Positions 18,495 to 62,520 of a stretch of 64,000 bases of DNA are shown here, piece after piece (positions within the stretch are counted from its first letter, which is position 1; every line of letters starts with the position of its first letter). The stretch lies in the NCBI GenBank assembly GCA_023627715.1, contig JAMAHW010000078.1, positions 62,001 through 126,000 of the forward strand. Direction: 5' to 3'. The notes beneath the pieces were generated by a model. The model made no database searches, had not been told where the DNA came from, and saw only the letters and a list, made by a program, of their open reading frames with translations. Position numbers and translations under genes: made by a program. The DNA is from Periconia sp. R9002 (lineage: Eukaryota > Ascomycota > Dothideomycetes > Pleosporales > Periconiaceae).

Positions 18495-19991
18495 GAAAAA
18501 ACCGATCTTTCCCACAGGTATACCAATGAAAAAGGTCTCTGACTATATCTAAACAAGATGGGAAGTTGCGAATGTTGAGAGGTGTATGAGAGAAACGTAG
18601 TCGCAACGGTGCGATCGAAATTTGGGCGCGCTAGGCCCAGACCGGGTTGGTGTGGGGTGGACAATTCATGACTTGGTAGTTAGAAAATCTGGGAGCACAT
18701 AAATATACATGTGTGTGAGGAGCATTAGATAATTCAGAAAAGCAGCGACCCGATTCATTACGTGTTTACGTTTCATGCTATTCAAAAACAAGGGCGAACC
18801 ATCTCTTCGGCGTACTGTTGGATCGATTATGCAACACTCAAGTGCTCGTTACGTTAATATCTGTCGCGTTGCCGACATCTACAGTATCAATGAATCGCAT
18901 TATGTAATGGGTTGCTAGAAATGTATAGGCTCTACTGGACGTCAGTAATCAAAAGCAGAAGTGCTAAGTGGTACAGGATCTTGGAGAAACTGAATCAAAA
19001 ACGGTAGAAGTACGCTATTGCAATAGGCACTGCACTTCAATTTCAAGCAGGACAACCTTAGACAGCCGAATTAGGAATTCAATCTAGAAATTGGGCTTGT
19101 CGAGGGCCCTTCTAACATCCCGAGGAACAGCTACGCTTGAGCTCACTGATATAAAACCCGCAGGCTTTGGTGATGCGAACATCGACCGCATAACGATGAG
19201 AGCTACGGAACCGACTGGACACAGCTGTATCATTCATCAACCCCGCTTCTATATCCTCTGTATCTTTATTGGTGTGTCAATGGGCATGCGTTGAATTGGG
19301 TGTGGGGTCGCATCGGGGTGGGGCATTATTGCGCGCCGTAGTAAAAATATCATCCACGCTTGCTCCTCATTTGGGTCTGGTAGAGCCTGCCTGTCTGATA
19401 TTCCCGTTGGCGACCGCGATCTCATGGCAAGACGTGGTCTGGCGCATCTATTCGCAGTCTAGCGGAGAATGCATAGCGGCGTATGGTGAGGGATCGGTCC
19501 TTCTATAGGTCACGGCTTCAAGGGGAAAATGGGAGAGTGAGCGTATCGATAGCTTCGAGTGTTCGTGGAAAGGCATGCGACGGACGGTATGGATCATATT
19601 GAGGCTGTTGCCGTGGTATTGTAGTTATTGTGGTGTCGTCGCGATGTGCTGTCGGCGAACGTCAGAGTGTAAACAGCACTTGAGGCACTCATCTCTGATT
19701 ACATAAGCTTCTTGGCCGTACTCCATAAATAGCACCACTTGAGTGCCTGAGGTTGTTACACCACTAAAATGCATGAAAATACTGTTGCCTTCCAGCAGTG
19801 GGGAATTCACTCGCAAGCTTTCCCGAACTTAGTCCAGTTGAATTGATACCTTGAAACGAGGTGAAACTATCAGGCACCAGTGAAAACGCTTCTAGTGCTA
19901 CCTCTCGATTACTTAAATACTCATACTCTGATCTGCGCAAGTGATCTGTGTCTTTGTCGATAAATTTTCTTTCTGGTATTGATATCTCGTT
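18495..19991. other. intergenic, 1.5 kb
   Basis: Divergent spacer between the RWD gene and the first sirtuin. Only short, motif-free open frames. Confidence 0.5.
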
Positions 19992-21062
19992 ATGTCTTCT
20001 GAAAATAAATCATCTTTCACGGCTCCCCAGGGTTTAGACCCGTCTGCGGTTGCATCTTTCCAGGCACATCTCGCGCAATCCAAGCGCATAGTAGCCGTCA
20101 TAGGCGCAGGGCTCTCTGCTTCCTCGGGATTGGCAACATTTCGAGACACCAACGGTCTGTGGGCGAACTATGATGTACAGCTTATTGGCACTCCAGCAGG
20201 CTGGCGCCGTGATCCTGGACTTGTCTGGCAGTTCTACTCAGAGCGTCGTCGTAACGCGCTGAAGGCGGAACCTAACCCTGCACACTACGCTTTGTCTGAA
20301 CTCGCGAAGAAAAAACCGGGGTTTATCGCATTGAGTCAGAATGTAGATGGGCTGCTCGAGCGCGCCGGTTTGGAGAATGGCTACGGGAACAAGAACGATT
20401 CCCAGCTCAAGTTACTGCATGGCAATCTCTTCGGACTAGAGTGCGCCAATCACTGCGGATACACCGAGCAAAACTTCAAGGACCCCTTGTGTTCTGTCTT
20501 GAGCGAGGAGAGTGTGAAAAACAGGGCAAACGTGATGGGTGCTGGAGTGAAGGACGGGGAAAAACCACCAAAAGCCAGCGCACTTCTGTTCGAAGCCATC
20601 GCAGCAAAGAACAAAAAGATCTTGGGCGAAAGTTTCAAGACGAGTGAACTGAGTGCTACCGATGCGGCACCGTTGAGGGAACGAGGTGAAGATGCACTAA
20701 AGATACCCGACTTGGTCCCAGTCTTGCACTCCGGTATACAACCGAGCGACTTGCTGCAGTGTCCTGGATGTAACAACAGTCTCCTACGTCCACGTGTTGT
20801 GTGGTTCGGGGAAGCACTCCCCAAGGATATCGTTGAGCAGGTGGATGATTGGTTCGAGGAAGATAAAGTGGATTTGTGCCTTGTGATAGGGACATCGGGC
20901 TCAGTTTGGCCAGCTGCCGGATATGCTGAACAGGCGCGGAAAAAAGGTGCTCGAATTGCCTACGTGAATATGAAGCAGGAAGATATGAAGCATAGTCAAG
21001 AGCGCGACTGGGCATTTGTTGGGGACGCAGCCGTTATTCTGCCGGAGATATTAAGCTTTTAA
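19992..21062 (+). CDS. SIRT5-like sirtuin, NAD-dependent protein deacylase
   Basis: Intronless, 356 residues. Sirtuin signatures occur in order: VIGAGLSASSGLATFR (NAD site, about residue 37), SQNVDGL, LHGN with the catalytic His, zinc Cys pairs ECANHC and CPGC, then VIGTSGSVWPA. The segment WQFYSERRR holds the Tyr-x-x-Arg pair that in SIRT5 and CobB recognises acidic acyl groups, so desuccinylase/demalonylase-type activity is plausible. About 90 residues separate the two Cys pairs, much longer than in the second sirtuin of this window (residues about 165-255, rich in Lys, Glu and Ala). No clear mitochondrial presequence is visible. Confidence 0.92.
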   Translation: MSSENKSSFTAPQGLDPSAVASFQAHLAQSKRIVAVIGAGLSASSGLATFRDTNGLWANYDVQLIGTPAGWRRDPGLVWQFYSERRRNALKAEPNPAHYALSELAKKKPGFIALSQNVDGLLERAGLENGYGNKNDSQLKLLHGNLFGLECANHCGYTEQNFKDPLCSVLSEESVKNRANVMGAGVKDGEKPPKASALLFEAIAAKNKKILGESFKTSELSATDAAPLRERGEDALKIPDLVPVLHSGIQPSDLLQCPGCNNSLLRPRVVWFGEALPKDIVEQVDDWFEEDKVDLCLVIGTSGSVWPAAGYAEQARKKGARIAYVNMKQEDMKHSQERDWAFVGDAAVILPEILSF

Positions 21063-44457: not shown

Positions 44458-47367
44458 CTAGGTTAAAGTCGGTGCTACTGTTTTCGCTTGTAGAAGATCG
44501 CGTAGCGACTTGGCAAATGATCCTTCGATACCCCATGTATAGCAGGGTGGCTCTGATGAGGTAGACGGCCTAATTCCTTCTGAAGGTGCGATGTACAAGT
44601 CCCGTGCAAGCAGCGAGATGCCTTCTTGGAGAATCTTATTTGGGGCATCCCTGTTTTGGATGTCGCCCACCCTGGAAATGTGAGCAGACATTTTGTGCCC
44701 CACCCGCACGAATGTCTGAACCAATTCATCGTCAAGCGGCCGGTCTAAGTGCAGAAAAGACGGCTCTGGCTCATCATGATTATCGAGGGCTGCAGCTTCA
44801 ATAACTTCGGGGAGCCTCGTCGACACGCAGAATGCCCAGAGAACCAGAGTCGCCATGTAAATAGCGTATGGCTCCAACATACTGTCACAGCTGTACCGCC
44901 GAACGTGCCAGTACAATGCGCCGCAGTGGACTATGGCCAATCTAGCCTTGAATCGATCTCGAAGAACCCACTGCAAAACGTGCTGACGCGCCATGGCATA
45001 CTTGTTACTACTCTGCAAAATGTTAGAGTGTGCCGAAGTGGACTCCGTCGCGAAAGTCTGAATGTACGTTGTTGGAGTCAGGATTATGAGGCGAGCCAGA
45101 TGCAGGTGTAGAATCGTGTGGTGCTCCGACCCCGACAATTGAGCGGCTTTGCTGTTTGCTGGCCAATGTAGGACGTCTAGGCAGTCACAGGCGCTATTGC
45201 GCCACTTCGACATCGTCGATGTCGTGGGGGGCAACTTCTGCTGCGTGACAATCTGATGTGAGCGGGGCTGGGCAATTGCTGTCGGCGTCCATGAGTTAAG
45301 CTGGATTCGCTCTCTCGCCATGATCTGCATGGTATTGCGGTATATGGCATTGACCAGGAGCCCAATGCTAAATTCGCCAAGGTGGAGCGGCAATTTCTTC
45401 TCCATGTATATAGTTTCCATAGCTCCCAGGAGTGTCACGTCAGCAAAACTTTTCTTGCCTTGATGCACCAGATCCGGACTCTCCCACACATCCTCATGAG
45501 ACGGAAGTGTGGCTTTGATATCATCAAGTTGCATCAAAGGCTTAGCGTCAAACTGGTAGAGAAAAATGGAGTCTAGGAACTGCAGGAGTTAGATGTGATC
45601 AATGAATAGAAAGGGAAGAGCAGAGTACCCAAATCATCATTCCTGTACGAATCTCTGATTCACAAAGAATCCATTTGTTGATGAAATCCTGTCCGTACTG
45701 CTGTGTCGCGTTTCCTCGACTGTTGTCCTCGGAATCCCGAGAGATCAATTTCAGAGAGTGGCAGGCTTCCACAAGATAGTGCCGCTCGACAAAAGCACTC
45801 TCAACAAGAGCTTTTTTGGCAGAATGCATCATGCAAGCTACATTGAGAATACCAGCCTGTAACATCTGAAGACTGGGGGCTAGACGTGGTTCAAGGGACT
45901 GGCCTGGGGAAAAAAAAGTATTATCATTCGCATCGTCAGTGTAGATCCCGTAGCCGTACCTGCGCCGTCGAAGAATGGTGTTCAATAGTCGGAAGAGTGT
46001 TTCATCAGGCTCGCTGCTCTGTAGACGGCGCGAATATCTGGCGCCTACAACGGACACAGCTAGGAGCAAGAGAGGTTCCGATTGTGCATCATCAGCAAAT
46101 GAGGATTGACGTAGGAAAGGGAAGATGGGATGAAAGTTTTTAAAGTATTGGAGCACATAGTGTTGCATCTGCGCATGAGAGGGCAGATTGGCATGCTCAA
46201 TGTCGAGAGCTTGTAGTTGAATTTCAGCCACTAGAGTCTGAACCAAGTTGTTGTATGCCATGGTTGAACATATTGGTCCAGCTTCAGGATATCTAGGACA
46301 CTGTATGGAAACAGTATCACCGGAGACATTATTGTGTAGCGGCTCTATTCTCCCAATAAAATCACGGTTGTGTGATCTTCCTCCGAAAGGAGCTCTTGCA
46401 CCAGCTCCGTCGACGTAATATCTGGCCTCCGTAGAACTGGAAGATATGGTAGAGCTCACAACGCTACGAGGGGGCTCCGATTCCAGTTCCGCTTGGATTT
46501 GCCGCTGCTGTTGGTGGTTCGTGCTAGTATGCTGACTTCCACCTTCTTCAAGCAATCTCCCTCGCTCGTTGCCCGCTCCCTGTGGCATGCCGGTGTTGGC
46601 TGCATAGCCAGACAACAGGGCATCCCAATCGACTGCCAATTCATACTGTGGTGACATCCAGTTAACGTCAGACACGCCCAAGCCTAGCTGGTCGGGCTGA
46701 TTGATGTCGTACAAGTCATCCATACCATTGATAGTACCCATCCATGATAGAGAGTCACCTGGGTCGCTCATTGCATTGGTTGTGGAAGATGGAAAAGACG
46801 TCGATGCGGCGTTGCCCTCGGTATCATTATCAATAGGCGCTGGTCTTGAATCACTGGCTGGCACAAGTTGATGTGCAACCATCTGTTCAAGAATAGTGAC
46901 ATTTTGTTGCAGTGGCGCATTCTGAGTACCATCAATGGGGTTGCCCGTGCGCATTCGTGCCCGGGGAGTAGTTGTGGGATAACGACAGGCGAGCCTTCTA
47001 TTCATACACCTCCTGCATGGCAGACCACGGGAGCATCGGACGCGGTCAATAGCGCACTGTCTGCATGCCCGCGATGAAGCTGTCACATTCGATTTATCGC
47101 CATCTTCCTCATGTGAAGCTACATGACGGTTGAGTACATCACTTTGCCAGATCAGTCAGCGGGCGCATTACGAGAGGAGTGGGAGCAAGTCGAAGAAAAA
47201 AAACGGACAACCTACAGGCGCGAGAAACGTTTCTCGCAGAGGGAGCATTGGTAGGGTTTCTCCCGTGTGTGTATGCGCACGTGGCGTGTGAGATGTTCCT
47301 GTCTTCCAAAGGTCTGGTTGCATATAGGGCAGCAGACTAGCGACGACTGTCTCCGCGAGGGACCCAT
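44458..47367 (-). CDS. C2H2 + Zn2Cys6 transcription factor
   Basis: Exons (minus) 47367..47216, 47141..45629 and 45579..44458 give 928 residues; the introns are 74 and 49 nt, the first with a GCTGACT branch site. Two classical C2H2 fingers open the protein: [21 protein letters not shown], broken here as CPICNQTF and [17 protein letters not shown], then [11 protein letters not shown] joined over intron 1 to [11 protein letters not shown] zinc cluster [11 protein letters not shown]...[11 protein letters not shown] follows about 20 residues later. The long C-terminal half has the fungal_trans pattern ([34 protein letters not shown]). This double finger type is known in fungi, several controlling carbon use. 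Its position upstream of a sugar transporter suggests local control. Confidence 0.9.
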
Positions 47368-48358
47368 AATCGCCTTAGCTTCCGATGCATGCCCTCTCTG
47401 GATTGAATTGTAGGTTTCAAGAGCTTGAGAAGACGCGACAGACGGGATAATGATGGTGCGCGTGACCTCGGCTCATTCAGTTTTGCCGCCGCTTGAATCC
47501 CACGCTTCACCACACGAGTCAACGCAACAGTTAATTATTTTATACTTGTGGCTCGAATAATGAGTGGCGGGGTGGTGAGTTGTTAATTGTTTAGAAGCTG
47601 CGCTATTCTACACTTGGTACTAATAATTCAATGCAGATATGTTTCAAGATGACAGACACTTTTTATAGATTCTAAACTCGTACTATTTTACATCTACGAA
47701 AATTAGAATTCTCTCCAATAGGCAATCACCTATAGTTGTGACTCCTCTGTTTCTTGCTTTCAGATCCAGAATATCATTGGCCAAATAATCCGAATAGCAA
47801 ATAATTGATTAGTATTTGAAAAAATATTTACCATGGAATATCTTTCGCCTGACCCTGTTAGAGATCGCGGGTAGATACGTAGTCACACATAGGCAGCTTG
47901 AGACTTTGGTATGATCTGATGAATGGAATGAATGGAAGGCGACCGAAAATGACGCAAGAAATGATGACAAAGTCCTTAGCTATAATGTTTGCTTGAAAAG
48001 ACACAAATGCTGGGTGTACTGCACCCCACCGGAAGGACATAACGTACCTTGATATTTACCTAGACAGGCATTGGTTATGCGGGGTTGCAGGCACCATCTC
48101 TCCACCGGGGCTCCACCAAATCTGCCTTTCTTACGCGACCCCACAACATTTCCCCGCATCACGTCTGCAGGAACGGTACTGATTGTCACAAACGGTTTAC
48201 CAAAGGTCTTCTGGAATGTATCACTGAAAAGGAATAATTCATGGATTAATTTATAACTGATACTAGCAGTAGCCAGGAATGTTTATACATAAAAAGAGAT
48301 GCACCCGTCTATTCGGGCTGTGTTATCAGTTTTATGATAAGTACACTCCTGAGAAAAA
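47368..48358. other. divergent promoter region, 1.0 kb
   Basis: Shared upstream region of the C2H2+Zn2Cys6 regulator and the clan GH-A glycosidase. No gene seen. Confidence 0.5.
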
Positions 48359-53435: not shown

Positions 53436-55420
53436 GATGCTTATGTCCTTAGGATTAGTTAAAGGCACACATACGCGAATTATCAAAATCTCATGATGTT
53501 CATGATGCAGATAATGTTCAACTTATACCGCAATTGCTCGCCATGATACCCAGAACGCCCGGTGGAGGCACTAACTTCTATGGAGCGCGCGGCTCACGCC
53601 ATTACAGCGCTGCGCTATTAGTGGAGGAGATAATAGAGAAAGATCTGTGAAACCAGAAGAAGTTGTTCGATCGCAAATTACCCGGTGATTATAGAAATGA
53701 AAATCCAGGGGTACACGAGGGGCATATACATTTACCCAGGATCAACCATTCGTTGGCGCATAATCTTTTGTTTTCACGACGGATTTGTATTCTCCAGATC
53801 CGTCAGAGTGATTTTAATGCATGCATATAACAGGTATTCGTCAATCACAAATTATTCCGATGCCCTGGGTAAAGTCTCCGAATTCCAAACGCTACGTGAA
53901 GTGGGGTTTGCAATATACAAGAGGTTAATATAGGGTTGCGATTCACCCCAATCTATCTGCATGAGTGGACACCCGACGAATTATATTCGTTTCCAAGGAG
54001 ACGGATCGAGTACTGCAAGACGGGTTGCGGCGAAGTAGTGTGGGAGGCGGGTCGACCAAATTCCAACCAAATATTCAAGATGGGCAGATTACTTATGTGG
54101 GAGGCCATATAAGTAGAGTACTCTTCAGTAAGATTATGACCCACTTTCAGGTCCACGACGGCAGAATCAGTCTACCTAATGTATTCCAGGATCCCCACCG
54201 GAGGATCGCGGTAGATGCAGCAACGCGAACGAGAGTATCTGTGCGTTGGGTCAGTGGGGGAAATAATATGTCCTGGACCGTCATCTAAATGTGTTCGCCC
54301 GGGATAACCCCTTCAGTTGGCCAGTTCGTAGATCGTCTAAATATTCAGTTTAAGTCGCTTGCCTGTCATAAAAAGAGCAAATATAAGCTTCCCAGAGACT
54401 GCGACGCGACACGTATGAAAAGATAAATTTTGGTGCCTGCTTTCACTTGATCTCGCTTAATCACAATCAAAAATTTAGGATGTCGTCACTCCCGCCGTAG
54501 CAGTTTGGTTGCGTGGGCCCGGTAGTAAGTACAATGTGCAATCTTCAACTTAGGCCAAATTATAGAGGTTAAAAACGAAGATTATCCATCTTCGTAATAT
54601 GACTGAGCAAAATATCTGGCCAATCCTTTGTTTACATACGCCCGATGCGATATGAAAGCATGGAAATATTACGCGAAAAATCTCGTCACCCCCTAAAAAT
54701 AGCAATCGTGTCATGGACATCGCTGTGAGGTGTACCTATGTATATGTTCAGTCCGAGGATGTATTTTTGTTTTCTGCTCTCCTCTATCCATACGGCAAGT
54801 AACTTCATTACTAAGCATTGATATGTACCTAGGTATATATATGCCACTGTGCATGTAAGTATGCAGTGACATAGTCCAATCGCGGTGAAAATAGGTGTAC
54901 ATGATGAGTAACACAAAGTAAGAGAAATGATTGAAGGAGAGGTGCTGTCACTTCTGTCAGTCCTTAGCCCGTTTCTTATGCTCACCAGCAAGACCATACC
55001 ACTAGATACCATCACATACACAAATTGAATTAATTACAGAGGTCACATTTTTATATTGTGATTCGATTCCATGACATTGATCTGAGGCTATGAAATTTGA
55101 ATAAACCCCTGTGTATTCTTTCATACATCAGCTCAACGCCATACCCGATTCTTACCAGGAGCAAGCGTTGAAAACCGTATTTTAAATGAGTGACTTCTTT
55201 GGATGGAGTAGAGCATGATAATGGGAAAATATGCTCTCATTTACAGCATACGAAGGACAAGCCATGAAAAACGTGGTGCTGTAATAATGGTGTTTGCAAG
55301 GAACGACAGAGCTTGTCGCTTGTCGGGCCCACTTATTCGTCATCGTTACTGGGAAGGATGTTGGTCGCTACAACGTGTTAGGATAGTTAGAATACTTGAG
55401 TGTTTGAACTAACCTCTATA
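53436..55420. other. intergenic, 2.0 kb
   Basis: Between GH2 and the RiPP precursor gene. No convincing gene; an exact TACCTAGGTA palindrome lies at 54826-54835. The 3' part includes the decayed remainder of the fifth precursor repeat just below 55421. Confidence 0.45.
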
Positions 55421-55955
55421 TCATGGAGCGAAGTCGGCACGCTTATCTTCCACGTCACGCTTCTTCTTGTCATCACTGTTCGGTAGGATGTTGGTTGCTT
55501 TCAGGTTAGCAAAGCCCAGAGAATTTGTCATAAGGCTTACCTCGGTACCAAGGAGCAAATTCTGTGCGTTTCTCTTCAGCATCACGCTTCTTTTTGTCAT
55601 CGCTGTTTGGGAGGATATTCGTGGCTGCGTAGTATGTCAGATAGCGTCGACCAACAGAAACTCCAGACCAACCTCTGTACCACGGAGCAAACTCGGTACG
55701 TTTCTCTTCAGCTTCACGCTTTTTCTTGTCGTCATTGTTAGGGAGAATATTGGTTGCTAGCAAATGTCTCAGTCATTTTCAAATGATCAATTGATCATAA
55801 CCTACCTCGGTACCAAGGAGCAAATTCGGTCCTCTTCTCCTCCACGTCACGTTTCTTGTCGTCACTGTTGGGGAGGATGTTGGTCGCTAGAAATTAAATC
55901 AGACAAGTGAAAATATATGAACAATCGGATAGTACCTCGGTACCAAGGAGCAAAC
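55421..55955 (-). repeat. five tandem core-peptide repeats, one per exon
   Basis: Exon-plus-intron units of about 130 nt repeat through this stretch. Cores 1-4 are identical at the protein level (TEFAPWYR) while codons differ at several places, which points to selection on the peptide rather than very recent copying. Introns of 49, 49, 48 and 43 nt separate the units and differ in sequence. Confidence 0.85.
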
Positions 55956-56050
55956 TCGGTGCGCTTAGCCACGTCTTCGTTGGCGGCAGGAGCAGCAGCT
56001 CCCAAAGTGGAGAGAAGTGCCGTAGCACTAATGAGCTCGACTAAACGCAT
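55421..56050 (-). CDS. dikaritin-type RiPP precursor with Kex2-flanked core repeats
   Basis: Exons (minus) 56050..55936, 55886..55806, 55756..55673, 55624..55541 and 55497..55421 give 146 residues. Exon 1 encodes a signal peptide (MRLVELISATALLSTLGAAA) and the first core after AKR. Exons 2-4 each encode one unit: ATNILPN, an acidic DD, a KKR or KKKR site, D/E-V/A-EE, a second KR, then the core TEFAPWYR. The fifth unit reads ADFAP and stops at a TGA that replaces the Trp codon. Every intron follows the Arg codon in phase 1, so internal exons are symmetric (81 or 84 nt). This is the known layout of UstA-like precursors cut by Kex2 in the Golgi. The Trp-Tyr pair could be the site of oxidative cross-linking. 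A UstYa homologue lies divergently 1.5 kb away. I do not recognise this core. A hormone-like pheromone precursor is an alternative, less likely given the neighbour. Confidence 0.88.
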
Positions 56051-57563: not shown

Positions 57564-58658
57564 ATGAGTTGGTTGCACAAGTTCGAGCGCAGCCGTGTGG
57601 CCTCAAGCACAATGCGCGACTCCTCGGAGTCAGATGAAGACGAAACTAAAGGCTTTGTAAGCGGAGCTACAAGAGCTGAGGACCGGAAATTCTTTATGAG
57701 CCGTCGCGCACTCATTCTTATTACCCTAGCCAACTTCTGCGCACTCATCATCTCCATCAGTCTCTTTGGGGTATGGTTCTTCAATAACTACATGGTGCGA
57801 AACGCGGCACTGCGACGGATATCTGGGTACAGTCCCGTGTACGACAAATATACAGTAGAATTCAAAGATGTTACGATTAACGGCACATTCTTTCCGCCAA
57901 AAGATGGAGGCGGGATCATGCGACACCAGCCTAATCCCGAAGATGACAAGATTTGGGAAGAGTGGGAGCTGACTCGAGTCTACCCCGTGACTCGCGAAGA
58001 GCTCACGAAGATGGGAAAAGACTATACCACAGTGGCGAAGCTTGAAGATAAAGATTGGGGCTTGGGCGATAACGCTTATGCGGCAATTTTTGATGTGTAT
58101 CATCAGATTCACTGCCTGAATTCATTGCGCAAAGTTGTGTATGGTGGATACTGTAAGCTATCTTCCCGTTAAAGAGGAGATAATCAACTGACGAAATTGA
58201 TGTCCAGACAATATGAGTCAAGCCCGAGCAGATAAGGTCATGCAAAGAGAGTTACATATGAACCACTGCTTTGACATCCTGCTCCAAGCCCTGCAGTGCT
58301 CGGGCAATATGGATATGATTCCTCTTGTGTGGATGTACACCCAAGCCTATCCATTTGCAGATATGTATGTCGACTTTCTTGTCCCATAGATACGTGCTGT
58401 TTCGACTTACTGGATATCAGGTCAATCAACAAGAAGTGTCACAACTTCGACAAGTTTACGGATTGGCGAAAAGAAAATAGCATCGACATGGACAAATATG
58501 TCGTGGTAATGAAGAAACCCAAGGGCGATAAGCCAGGTATCAAACAATTGCCGGCTTCGGACAAGTACTACGAGTATTGGGGGTATGATAATCCAAACCA
58601 CGTGCCCGTGTCTGAGGGAGGACTTGGCCTGCCTCTTGACGAAGACTCGAATCTGTAG
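57564..58658 (+). CDS. UstYa-family (DUF3328) oxidase
   Basis: Exons 57564..58152, 58208..58364 and 58421..58658 give 327 residues; the introns are 55 and 56 nt. After a hydrophilic, acidic N-terminus comes one membrane anchor (ALILITLANFCALIISISLF). The luminal part has both HxxHC motifs that define the family: YHQIHCLN in exon 1 and LHMNHCFDILLQALQC in exon 2. Late family residues include SINKKCHNFDKFTDW and an IDMDKY stretch. UstYa proteins catalyse oxidative macrocyclisation or other oxidations of Kex2-derived core peptides in dikaritin pathways, probably with copper. The divergent repeat precursor next to it is the likely substrate. No second UstYa, tyrosinase or dedicated transporter is seen nearby. 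Confidence 0.93.
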
Positions 58659-60736: not shown

Positions 60737-61620
60737 TCTTTGCCCGAGTGCGGTTTTCCTTAACAGCAAATGACAAGCTTCCGGCAGGACCACAAGTAAA
60801 ATGACCTATGCAGAGAAAGAAGGCAACTGGAAATAAACAAGCTTCGCTGCGCGTTGAGGGGCATTTTTGCGTGCCCGAGGCATTCAAAGGTGGTGAGTTG
60901 GCCGGCGAGATGACATCACATGTTCATCTTTACCTTAGGCGAACGAAATCCCTTGGCGCAAACATCACCCAAGAAACCCCGCTCCTTCAGCCTTACGATG
61001 TTTTCTCTATTCTAGGTTACCGTGAAGAGACCCTGAGTGATACTCTTGCATTATCTATGTATTTAATCTTCGGTTACCCTATCATTTCCCTGCCAGCCCC
61101 TCGTATTCGGTACGCGGCACAACTGCGAAATGACAACGGCGATTCTGATCCCGCATGAATGGCTTCGCGAGGTTTAATCGACATATACAGTTTGCGAAGA
61201 TGCTGAAGTCGTAGATCTGGCGTCATATCAAGGTTAACTTTGCCCAGCAGCGTATTGGGAGCTTCCTCGGCTCTTTGTTCTGATTGATTTTAAGCTTCAA
61301 CTGCACAGTCTCCTTGGTTGACGGGCTCACCTCCCACCAAGGAACCCGCACTAACTGTTAGGCTTTTGAACGAATTTTGACCGGAGATTCTAATATTTAG
61401 ATGAAGCACCACGAGCATGTACGCACTGCCACCAAGCTGGGTCGGGGCGTAGTTGCTTCTCGGGTCAACATCGGCCGGTAATGCAACTCAGCCTCCGTCA
61501 GGCTTCAGCACATCCCGCGAACGGCGACACCTGCGCCACTGTTGGGTTCTGCGTCGATTCCACGAAGAATGTTTAGTGGTATTCCTCCAAATGTCCTCTG
61601 CGCGTTAAATTTGATTCGTC

Positions 61621-62520
61621 ATGACGAGTGAATCAGCCCCAGACTACTCCGATGTGGTTTCCGCGACCGGTTTCCTTCGGCCTCGCGCCTCTCGTTCCAT
61701 GGCCACGTTCCACGAACACCTTGTTACCTCGAAACGCATTCTCGCCCTTCTAGGTGCTGGGCTCTCTGCGTCCTCAGGTCTTCCCACTTATCGCGGGGCG
61801 GGAGGGCTTTGGCGTACTCACGACGCAACGCAGCTTTCCACGCCGGTCGCCTTTGCCGCCGATCCCGCACTAGTCTGGGAGTTCCATCTCGAGCGATTGA
61901 AAGAGCTCCGAAATGCGCATCCGAATGCTGCACACCATGTACTCGCTGAGCTTGCGAAAAGCAATGCGCAATTCTTAGCCTTAACAATGAATGTAGATGA
62001 TTTAAGTGAAAGAGCAGGTCATCCGGAGGAGCGACTGTGGCATTTACATGGACGTCTAGGGGATCTAAAGTGCCATAAATGCGAGTTATTCCTATCCCCA
62101 ACCGATTCGGCGGCCGTTATCGAATCACTTCTCCAACGCGATTCTTCAAATCCCCTCGCTCTCGACGACGTACCACGGTGTAAGCAAAAGGGGTGTAAGG
62201 ATGGCTTGCTTCGACCTGGAGTCGTTTGGTTTACCGAGTCTCTTCCGCGACCATTGCTTGCATCCATAGCAACATGGATAGGAGATGCGAATGACACTTC
62301 GAAGTCCATTGACACTATGCTAGTCATTGGAACGAGCGCTCTTGTTTATCCTGCCACGGCGTATATTGAGGGAGCGCGCAGAAAAGGAGCACGAGTTGCT
62401 GTTGTTGACATTGAAAAAGAAGACCCCTCATTACTCGGACTCGCTGAGCAAGATTGGTATCTCCAAGGCGATGCTGCAATAGTGGTGCCCGAGATGTTGA
62501 AGCCCGTATCTGGACTGTAA
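61621..62520 (+). CDS. divergent SIRT5/CobB-like sirtuin with altered active-site motif
   Basis: Intronless, 299 residues. The order of sirtuin motifs is kept: LLGAGLSASSGLPTYRG (about residue 41), TMNVDDLSERAG, LHGR with the catalytic His, zinc Cys in KCHKC and RCKQKGC, then VIGTSALVYPA and the C-terminal GDAAIVVPEM. Two substitutions stand out. The nearly invariant Gln of (T/S)QNVD is Met, and the acyl-lysine selecting Tyr-x-x-Arg pair is His-x-x-Arg (EFHLER). These may change NAD handling and acyl preference. It is a paralogue of the gene at 20 kb, sharing the GAGLSASSGL block and LLRPxVVWFxExLP, but lacks the insertion between Cys pairs. The 40-residue N-terminal extension is of unknown role. 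Confidence 0.9.
   Translation: MTSESAPDYSDVVSATGFLRPRASRSMATFHEHLVTSKRILALLGAGLSASSGLPTYRGAGGLWRTHDATQLSTPVAFAADPALVWEFHLERLKELRNAHPNAAHHVLAELAKSNAQFLALTMNVDDLSERAGHPEERLWHLHGRLGDLKCHKCELFLSPTDSAAVIESLLQRDSSNPLALDDVPRCKQKGCKDGLLRPGVVWFTESLPRPLLASIATWIGDANDTSKSIDTMLVIGTSALVYPATAYIEGARRKGARVAVVDIEKEDPSLLGLAEQDWYLQGDAAIVVPEMLKPVSGL

Follow-up and report, generated by a model that had tools for sequence, protein, structure and literature searches.

The window analysed here, a 64,000-nucleotide stretch of the Periconia sp. R9002 genome (C78:62001-126000 of 42.9 Mb), carries a predicted precursor gene on the minus strand and, 1.5 kb from it and in divergent orientation, the start of a gene for a UstYa/DUF3328 protein (Table 1). 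The precursor is modelled with five exons, from an ATG at 56050 to a TGA stop at 55423-55421. An earlier note had placed a repeat RiPP precursor at 55421..56050, and that observation is confirmed because the two coordinates are exactly the first base of the start codon and the last base of the stop codon of our model. The signal peptide and the identical octapeptides after Lys-Arg sites that it described are present as well: the protein begins with MRLVELISATALLSTLGAAAPAANEDVAKR and continues into the repeats, the signal peptide being called by eye; exons 1–4 each contain one identical TEFAPWYR after Lys-Arg (KR); and exon 5 reads KR-ADFAP-stop, a degenerate and shortened fifth copy.

Table 1. 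Predicted features of the precursor gene and its UstYa partner (positions in the window).
Feature	Position	Strand	Description
Precursor exon 1	55936..56050	-	Signal peptide region MRLVELISATALLSTLGAAAPAA (by inspection), NEDVAKR, first TEFAPWYR
Intron 1	55887..55935	-	49 nt, phase 1; separates WYR from ATN in the first core
Exon 2	55806..55886	-	ATNILPNSDDKKRDVEEKR-TEFAPWYR
Intron 2	55757..55805	-	49 nt
Exon 3	55673..55756	-	ATNILPNNDDKKKREAEEKR-TEFAPWYR
Intron 3	55625..55672	-	48 nt; no in-frame stop, would add 16 residues if retained
Exon 4	55541..55624	-	ATNILPNSDDKKKRDAEEKR-TEFAPWYR
Intron 4	55498..55540	-	43 nt
Exon 5	55414..55497	-	ATNILPNSDDKKKRDVEDKR-ADFAP-stop; stop (55423-55421) in place of the Trp of copies 1–4
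Intron 5	55368..55413	-	46 nt; splice signals kept although 3′ of the stop
Exon 6	55333..55367	-	ATNILPSNDDE-stop; probable former C-terminus, beyond the exon 5 stop
UstYa/DUF3328 gene	57564..58658	+	PF11807, E 3e-44; 327 aa
UstYa predicted exons (3)	57564-58152, 58208-58364, 58421-58658	+	

All five introns begin with GT, end with AG and are of phase 1, and in 5 of 5 a branch-like CT[AG]A motif begins 12–16 nt before the 3′ end. Each lies directly after WYR and splits an Ala codon. Splicing would thus join each TEFAPWYR to ATNILP, which would give four complete cores, with a predicted spliced repeat of ATNILPNSDDKKKRDVEEKRTEFAPWYR and a predicted peptide after Lys-Arg of TEFAPWYRATNILPNSDDKK(K)R. 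The proposal that TEFAPWYR is the whole core does not hold: an intron cuts the core, TEFAPWYR is only that part of it which fits into one exon, and the block conserved among the homologues described below is WYRATNI, half of which lies in the next exon. In most relatives, moreover, TEFAP is swapped for VYTA, VYRA, VYQA or similar residues, while the homologues continue into ATNI. The assembly of the core by splicing would be a case of a peptide built across exons.

A single-sequence search found 9 homologues of the precursor at E values up to 1, and a profile search, its scoring confined to the 7994 candidates with most words in common, found 59. The motif YR[AS]TN is present in 55 of the 59 (once in 46, twice in 3, and three times in 6), so that the maximum among the homologues is three copies, compared with the four complete copies predicted in the window's gene. 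The 70 copies comprise 59 WYRATNI, 7 IYRATNI, 2 WYRSTNI, 1 TYRATNI, and 1 WYRATNS. The fourth position before the Tyr is occupied by Tyr (55), Phe (13) or Leu (2), and the second position after it by Ala (68) or Ser (2), never by Ile. The dipeptide before the core, in the same register, is KR in 45 copies, AR in 10, and other pairs in 15; since KR is missing in register from 25 of the 70 copies (the 10 with AR included), release by Kex2 is not evident for every relative. The Trp-Tyr pair beside an Arg, which the earlier note had proposed as a new cross-linking context, is real and conserved as a sequence context, and any cross-link within it would be a prediction.

Four homologues (P0157, P0167, P0168, and P0170) do not have the motif. 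P0157, from Ascochyta rabiei, has the look of a wrongly predicted gene; in the other three, WYRG is followed by unrelated residues, which fits gene models that run on into an intron placed as in the window's gene. The named species that carry the precursor are Paraphaeosphaeria minitans, Byssothecium circinans, Lophium mytilinum, Mytilinidion resinicola, Clathrospora elynae, Setomelanomma holmii, Pyrenophora seminiperda, P. tritici-repentis, Alternaria atra, Pleomassaria siparia, A. rabiei, Cytospora chrysosperma, and C. mali. They extend from the Dothideomycetes (Paraphaeosphaeria minitans in the Pleosporales, M. resinicola in the Mytilinidiales) to the Sordariomycetes (Cytospora, Diaporthales). 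Two members bear misleading public names, P0155 that of an RxLR effector protein and P0143 that of a 3-methyladenine DNA glycosylase. A short peptide that is near-identical in many other fungi probably does something important. The family could be missed by repeat-based surveys because most relatives (46 of 59) hold a single core. This also bears on the reading in which the secreted repeat protein serves a structural or surface function and its Lys-Arg sites are incidental: Kex2-processed surface peptides do exist, for example Rep1 of Ustilago maydis (PMC6374014), but a structural repeat protein accords poorly with single-core relatives, 25 of which are only 65–67 residues long, and with the pairing with UstYa, and we give this reading hardly any credence.

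The repeats themselves differ widely at synonymous sites. The six pairwise comparisons of exons 2–5 gave pS values of 0.63–0.91 versus pN values of 0.03–0.09, corresponding to a dN/dS of about 0–0.07, and when the ten intron pairs were compared with shuffles, nine had z values from -1.1 to 0.9 and pair 1/2 a z value of 2.1. By a simpler count, (i) the five copies of ATNILP had no non-synonymous difference in 10 comparisons at a pS of 0.75; (ii) copies 1–4 of TEFAPWYR had none at a pS of 0.36, and all five copies had a pN of 0.053 and a pS of 0.47; and (iii) the linker between the cores had a pN of 0.088 and a pS of 0.78. ATNILP is thus at least as constrained as TEFAPWYR. The synonymous divergence of TEFAPWYR copies 1–4 is below that of the rest. 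Because the synonymous sites are near saturation, the proteins near-identical, and the introns unrelated, the repeats are, by these measures, old and their protein sequence is kept by selection; a recent tandem duplication or an assembly artefact is excluded by the near-saturated synonymous sites and the unrelated introns.

The broken fifth copy might nevertheless mark the gene as a decaying one: a stop replaces the Trp, ADFAP stands instead of TEFAP, and exon 6 is stranded behind. We consider a pseudogene very unlikely, as copies 1–4 are intact, the frame and the splice signals are kept, and the dN/dS between exons 2–5 is low. The number of complete cores encoded is four, whether copy 5 is counted or not. 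The end of exon 6 (ATNILPSNDDE) resembles the ends of the homologues P0002 (ATNIIPYNDDE) and P0003 (ATNIIPSNDDA), and since intron 5 and this exon are still present, the stop in copy 5 looks recent.

The UstYa protein of the window contains two HxxHC motifs, HQIHC at residue 180 and HMNHC at residue 213. A PDB sequence search with it gave no match up to E 1, and an AlphaFold2 model for the P. minitans orthologue plus 36 further rows (mean pLDDT 71.6) gave no PDB match at E <= 0.001. That orthologue is 83 percent identical to the window's protein over its full length, and its gene (PMIN03_007070) and the P. minitans precursor gene (PMIN03_007071) have adjacent locus tags, as do the two genes of the pair in A. 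rabiei (EKO05_0010178 and EKO05_0010179). When the 59 precursor rows were set against 114 UstYa rows, 6 precursors, including both tag-adjacent pairs, shared equal-sized contigs with a UstYa, compared with a chance expectation of about 0.22, which falls to 0.02 when contigs above 4 kb alone are counted. UstYa is thereby tied to the precursor in only 6 of the 59 rows: the UstYa search, many rows of which are nameless, named none for Lophium, Mytilinidion, Byssothecium, Pleomassaria, Setomelanomma or Alternaria, and in Clathrospora elynae the listed precursor and UstYa contigs differ in size.

A tree built from 41 chosen UstYa rows places the window's protein and the six linked ones in one clade of 18 rows with support of 100/99. 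Its named members belong to the Pleosporales and to Cytospora, which also has the precursor. The UstYa of Cytospora schulzeri stands beside those of the Pleosporales, apart from that of Diaporthe, a member of the same order (Diaporthales); this placement hints at a horizontal transfer of the gene pair. Across the genome, PF11807 gave 61 exon-level UstYa matches, and the next UstYa on the same contig lies at C78:152387-153168, about 32 kb beyond that of the window.

The nearby open reading frames that were scanned encode, among others, a GH2 glycoside hydrolase, a Zn2Cys6 regulator, a Sir2 protein, and a fatty acid desaturase; two Sir2-family genes (Pfam SIR2) lie in the window at 61615-62517 and 19983-21059. 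Of the reading frames scanned, neither the O-methyltransferase fragment about 31 kb away, nor the sugar transporter about 11 kb away, nor the cytochrome P450 some 7 kb past UstYa looks like a part of the locus, and no clear tailoring gene and no recognised dedicated transporter were found among the immediate neighbours scanned. None of the 32 tyrosinase matches of the genome is on contig C78 (207 kb).

Under the broad definition of dikaritins, the DUF3328 protein is the class-defining enzyme (PMC12048977). The locus has a signal peptide (by eye), cores after Kex2 sites, and a nearby UstYa with two HxxHC motifs; judged by its genes, it qualifies as a broad-sense dikaritin locus with a predicted UstYa-modified product. 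The original five-gene definition calls for a tyrosinase, a methyltransferase, a transporter or peptidase, and several DUF3328 genes in the cluster. The locus falls outside it because the contig has no tyrosinase match and the locus a single UstYa, and the Tyr-x-Ile of the ustiloxin/phomopsin type is missing from 70 of 70 copies. With its signal peptide, called by eye, and its repeats separated by Kex2 sites, the precursor is also a Kex2-processed repeat protein (KEP). We would therefore describe it as predicted to work like a dikaritin precursor and to belong to the wider UstYa-associated class. The dikaritin-type layout proposed in the earlier note is supported, and it gains strength from the divergent UstYa gene, which that note did not mention, and from the recurrence of the pair in other fungi.

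Alpha-pheromone precursors have the same layout, and a near-invariant core is what a ligand would show. The product could on this account be a linear secreted peptide that Kex2 releases and that acts on a receptor as a sexual pheromone or hormone, with UstYa a mere neighbour. We think this improbable. Pleosporales alpha-pheromones are described as carrying PYG[L/M]P[I/V]G (PMC6339444), a motif absent from the precursor, and an alpha-pheromone was rejected on the mismatch between this published motif and the core. The real pheromone gene of this genome was not located, which leaves some room for the pheromone reading; the pattern had 0 matches in the genome versus 2 for its backward control and found no positive. 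A survey that covered 1461 strains reports that, three exceptions apart, the genes of 227 yeast mating factors and of 216 fungal pheromones lacked a DUF3328 gene in their vicinity (PMC7329392), and the recurrence of the precursor-UstYa pair in other fungi argues against a mere neighbour.

The reading we consider probable is that the gene belongs to a new family of fungal RiPP precursors that are processed by Kex2, have their cores modified by UstYa and are of the dikaritin type in the broad sense. In such pathways, the signal peptide acts first and is followed by Kex2 cleavage, trimming, and oxidation by UstYa. Here, the signal peptide would direct the precursor into the secretory pathway, Kex2 would cleave after Lys-Arg, and a carboxypeptidase would shorten the tail, leaving about TEFAPWYRATNILPNSDD. 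By analogy a membrane-anchored dicopper oxidase, the divergent UstYa would then oxidise WYRATNI, with the invariant Tyr as the likeliest site, to yield a cross-linked or otherwise dehydrogenated peptide. This Tyr would be the obvious UstYa target, and the Ile partner at +2 that it has in ustiloxin is absent in 70 of 70 copies. In UstY enzymes, a dicopper site works with oxygen to cross-link aromatic residues, and the cross-link of asperipin-2a, made by UstY, is an ether from Tyr-O to the Phe β-carbon (PMC12186524); UstYa proteins are also described as catalysing chemistry other than cross-linking (PMC12048977). Against the new-family reading we count this wider chemistry, the few precursor rows tied to a UstYa, the core copies without KR in register, the missing tyrosinase match and tailoring genes, the core without Tyr-x-Ile, the low synonymous divergence of TEFAPWYR, and the broken copy 5, a possible sign that selection has relaxed in this strain.

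The same chemistry could yield a toxin, or an effector aimed at plants, microbes or animals, a role that we regard as a serious contender, if somewhat short of an even chance. Dikaritins are described as predominantly mycotoxins (PMC12048977), and victorin is a host-selective toxin (PMC9632046). The Cytospora UstYa beside those of the Pleosporales, with its hint of horizontal transfer, points the same way. Such transfer is common for secondary-metabolite genes. A toxin role is disfavoured by a WYRATNI that hardly varies among the 70 copies and by a small locus in which no dedicated transporter or tailoring gene was recognised among the reading frames scanned. A signal is, moreover, a real alternative with a precedent: POI2, an ustiloxin-type precursor of Neurospora, is needed for sexual development (PMC7329392), so that a self-directed role of the WYRATNI peptide is possible. 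Because WYRATNI hardly changes from relative to relative and its flanks do drift, a conserved and perhaps self-directed signal seems slightly likelier to us than a fast-evolving toxin, in a comparison that is nearly even. Tentatively, WYRATNI may be a widespread UstYa-modified signal of the Pleosporales and their relatives, encoded mostly by one-core genes and amplified here as exon-intron modules in which each core is assembled only by splicing. The internal exons of the precursor are all symmetric (phase 1-1), and if this rather speculative scheme is true, exon skipping would change the copy number and never break a core.

Other precursor-like loci occur in the same genome. On contig C60 (about 44459-48029), a second Kex2-type precursor with AWYDITYIDK repeats runs from an ATG at 46535 to 46043 on the minus strand, has one 58-nt phase-1 intron just after its first WY, and is flanked by UstYa matches on both sides. 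It shares with the window's gene the layout, a core resembling WYRATNI by eye (WYDITYID), and the phase-1 intron after the first WY; by contrast, the intron is in the first repeat only, the core contains Tyr-Asp-Ile, and the similarity is weak (E 0.03). On contig C11, near 439949 (locus 1363-2615), NWY[AS]DSAAGVAESL repeats between Kex2-like sites appear to continue into a C-terminal part in which HQTHC and HAIHC can be seen by eye. It is possibly a precursor-enzyme fusion; the C-terminal part gave no Pfam match and a probability of 4 percent in hhalign against the UstYa profile. A repetitive open frame at C136:18570-18878 lies near a UstYa match (C136:20135-20311), and on contig C64 (200325-202541), UstYa matches (200325-201421) adjoin a tyrosinase match (201900-202541), possibly a classical dikaritin-type cluster.

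In the 5.39 million open-access papers searched, FAPWYR, WYRATN and YRATNI were absent, in agreement with the earlier statement that no product with a FAPWYR core is described; among the matches listed, YRATN in a fungus paper was an author's name. On introns in the genes of fungal RiPP precursors, the same literature yielded mostly unrelated papers or none. Section 10 of the 2019 KEP survey names the cross-species motifs DADAATXYV[A/V]D, YVW[G/A][G/S], SPPHKT, QKLKVD, and EDYXI (ustiloxins/phomopsins), and WYRATNI is not among them (PMC6339444); single-core members offer such surveys no repeat to detect. In the 2020 survey, Paraphaeosphaeria is among the fungi of type G-8, whose profile, as given there, has a His-His motif that the WYRATNI family lacks (PMC7329392). 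The family may already be listed somewhere. What our profile search adds is a family with a conserved, mostly single core that is tied to a distinct UstYa clade, and the locus offers a defined enzyme-substrate pair, one precursor and one UstYa, for UstYa action on a core without Tyr-x-Ile.

Comparison with the known systems revealed that (i) like the dikaritin precursors UstA and PhomA, the window's precursor has a signal peptide, repeated cores after Kex2 sites, a UstYa/DUF3328 gene close by, and an invariant Tyr; (ii) unlike the ustiloxin and phomopsin systems, it has WYRATNI without Tyr-x-Ile, no tyrosinase match on the contig, relatives with mostly one core, and an intron through every core copy; (iii) like the asperipin-2a locus (aprA and aprY), it is a small locus with an aromatic-rich core and a single UstYa-type oxidase, which is the cyclising enzyme of asperipin, although the asperipin core is FYYTGY, unlike WYRATNI, and that locus is described with a transporter and a reductase (PMC6514808), neither of which was recognised as part of the locus here; and (iv) like the epichloecyclin precursor gigA, which is described with a signal peptide, Kex2-separated repeats, and a clustered UstYa-like cyclase (PMC8982410), a likeness of description and not of sequence, it combines a repeated Kex2-type precursor with a UstYa partner.
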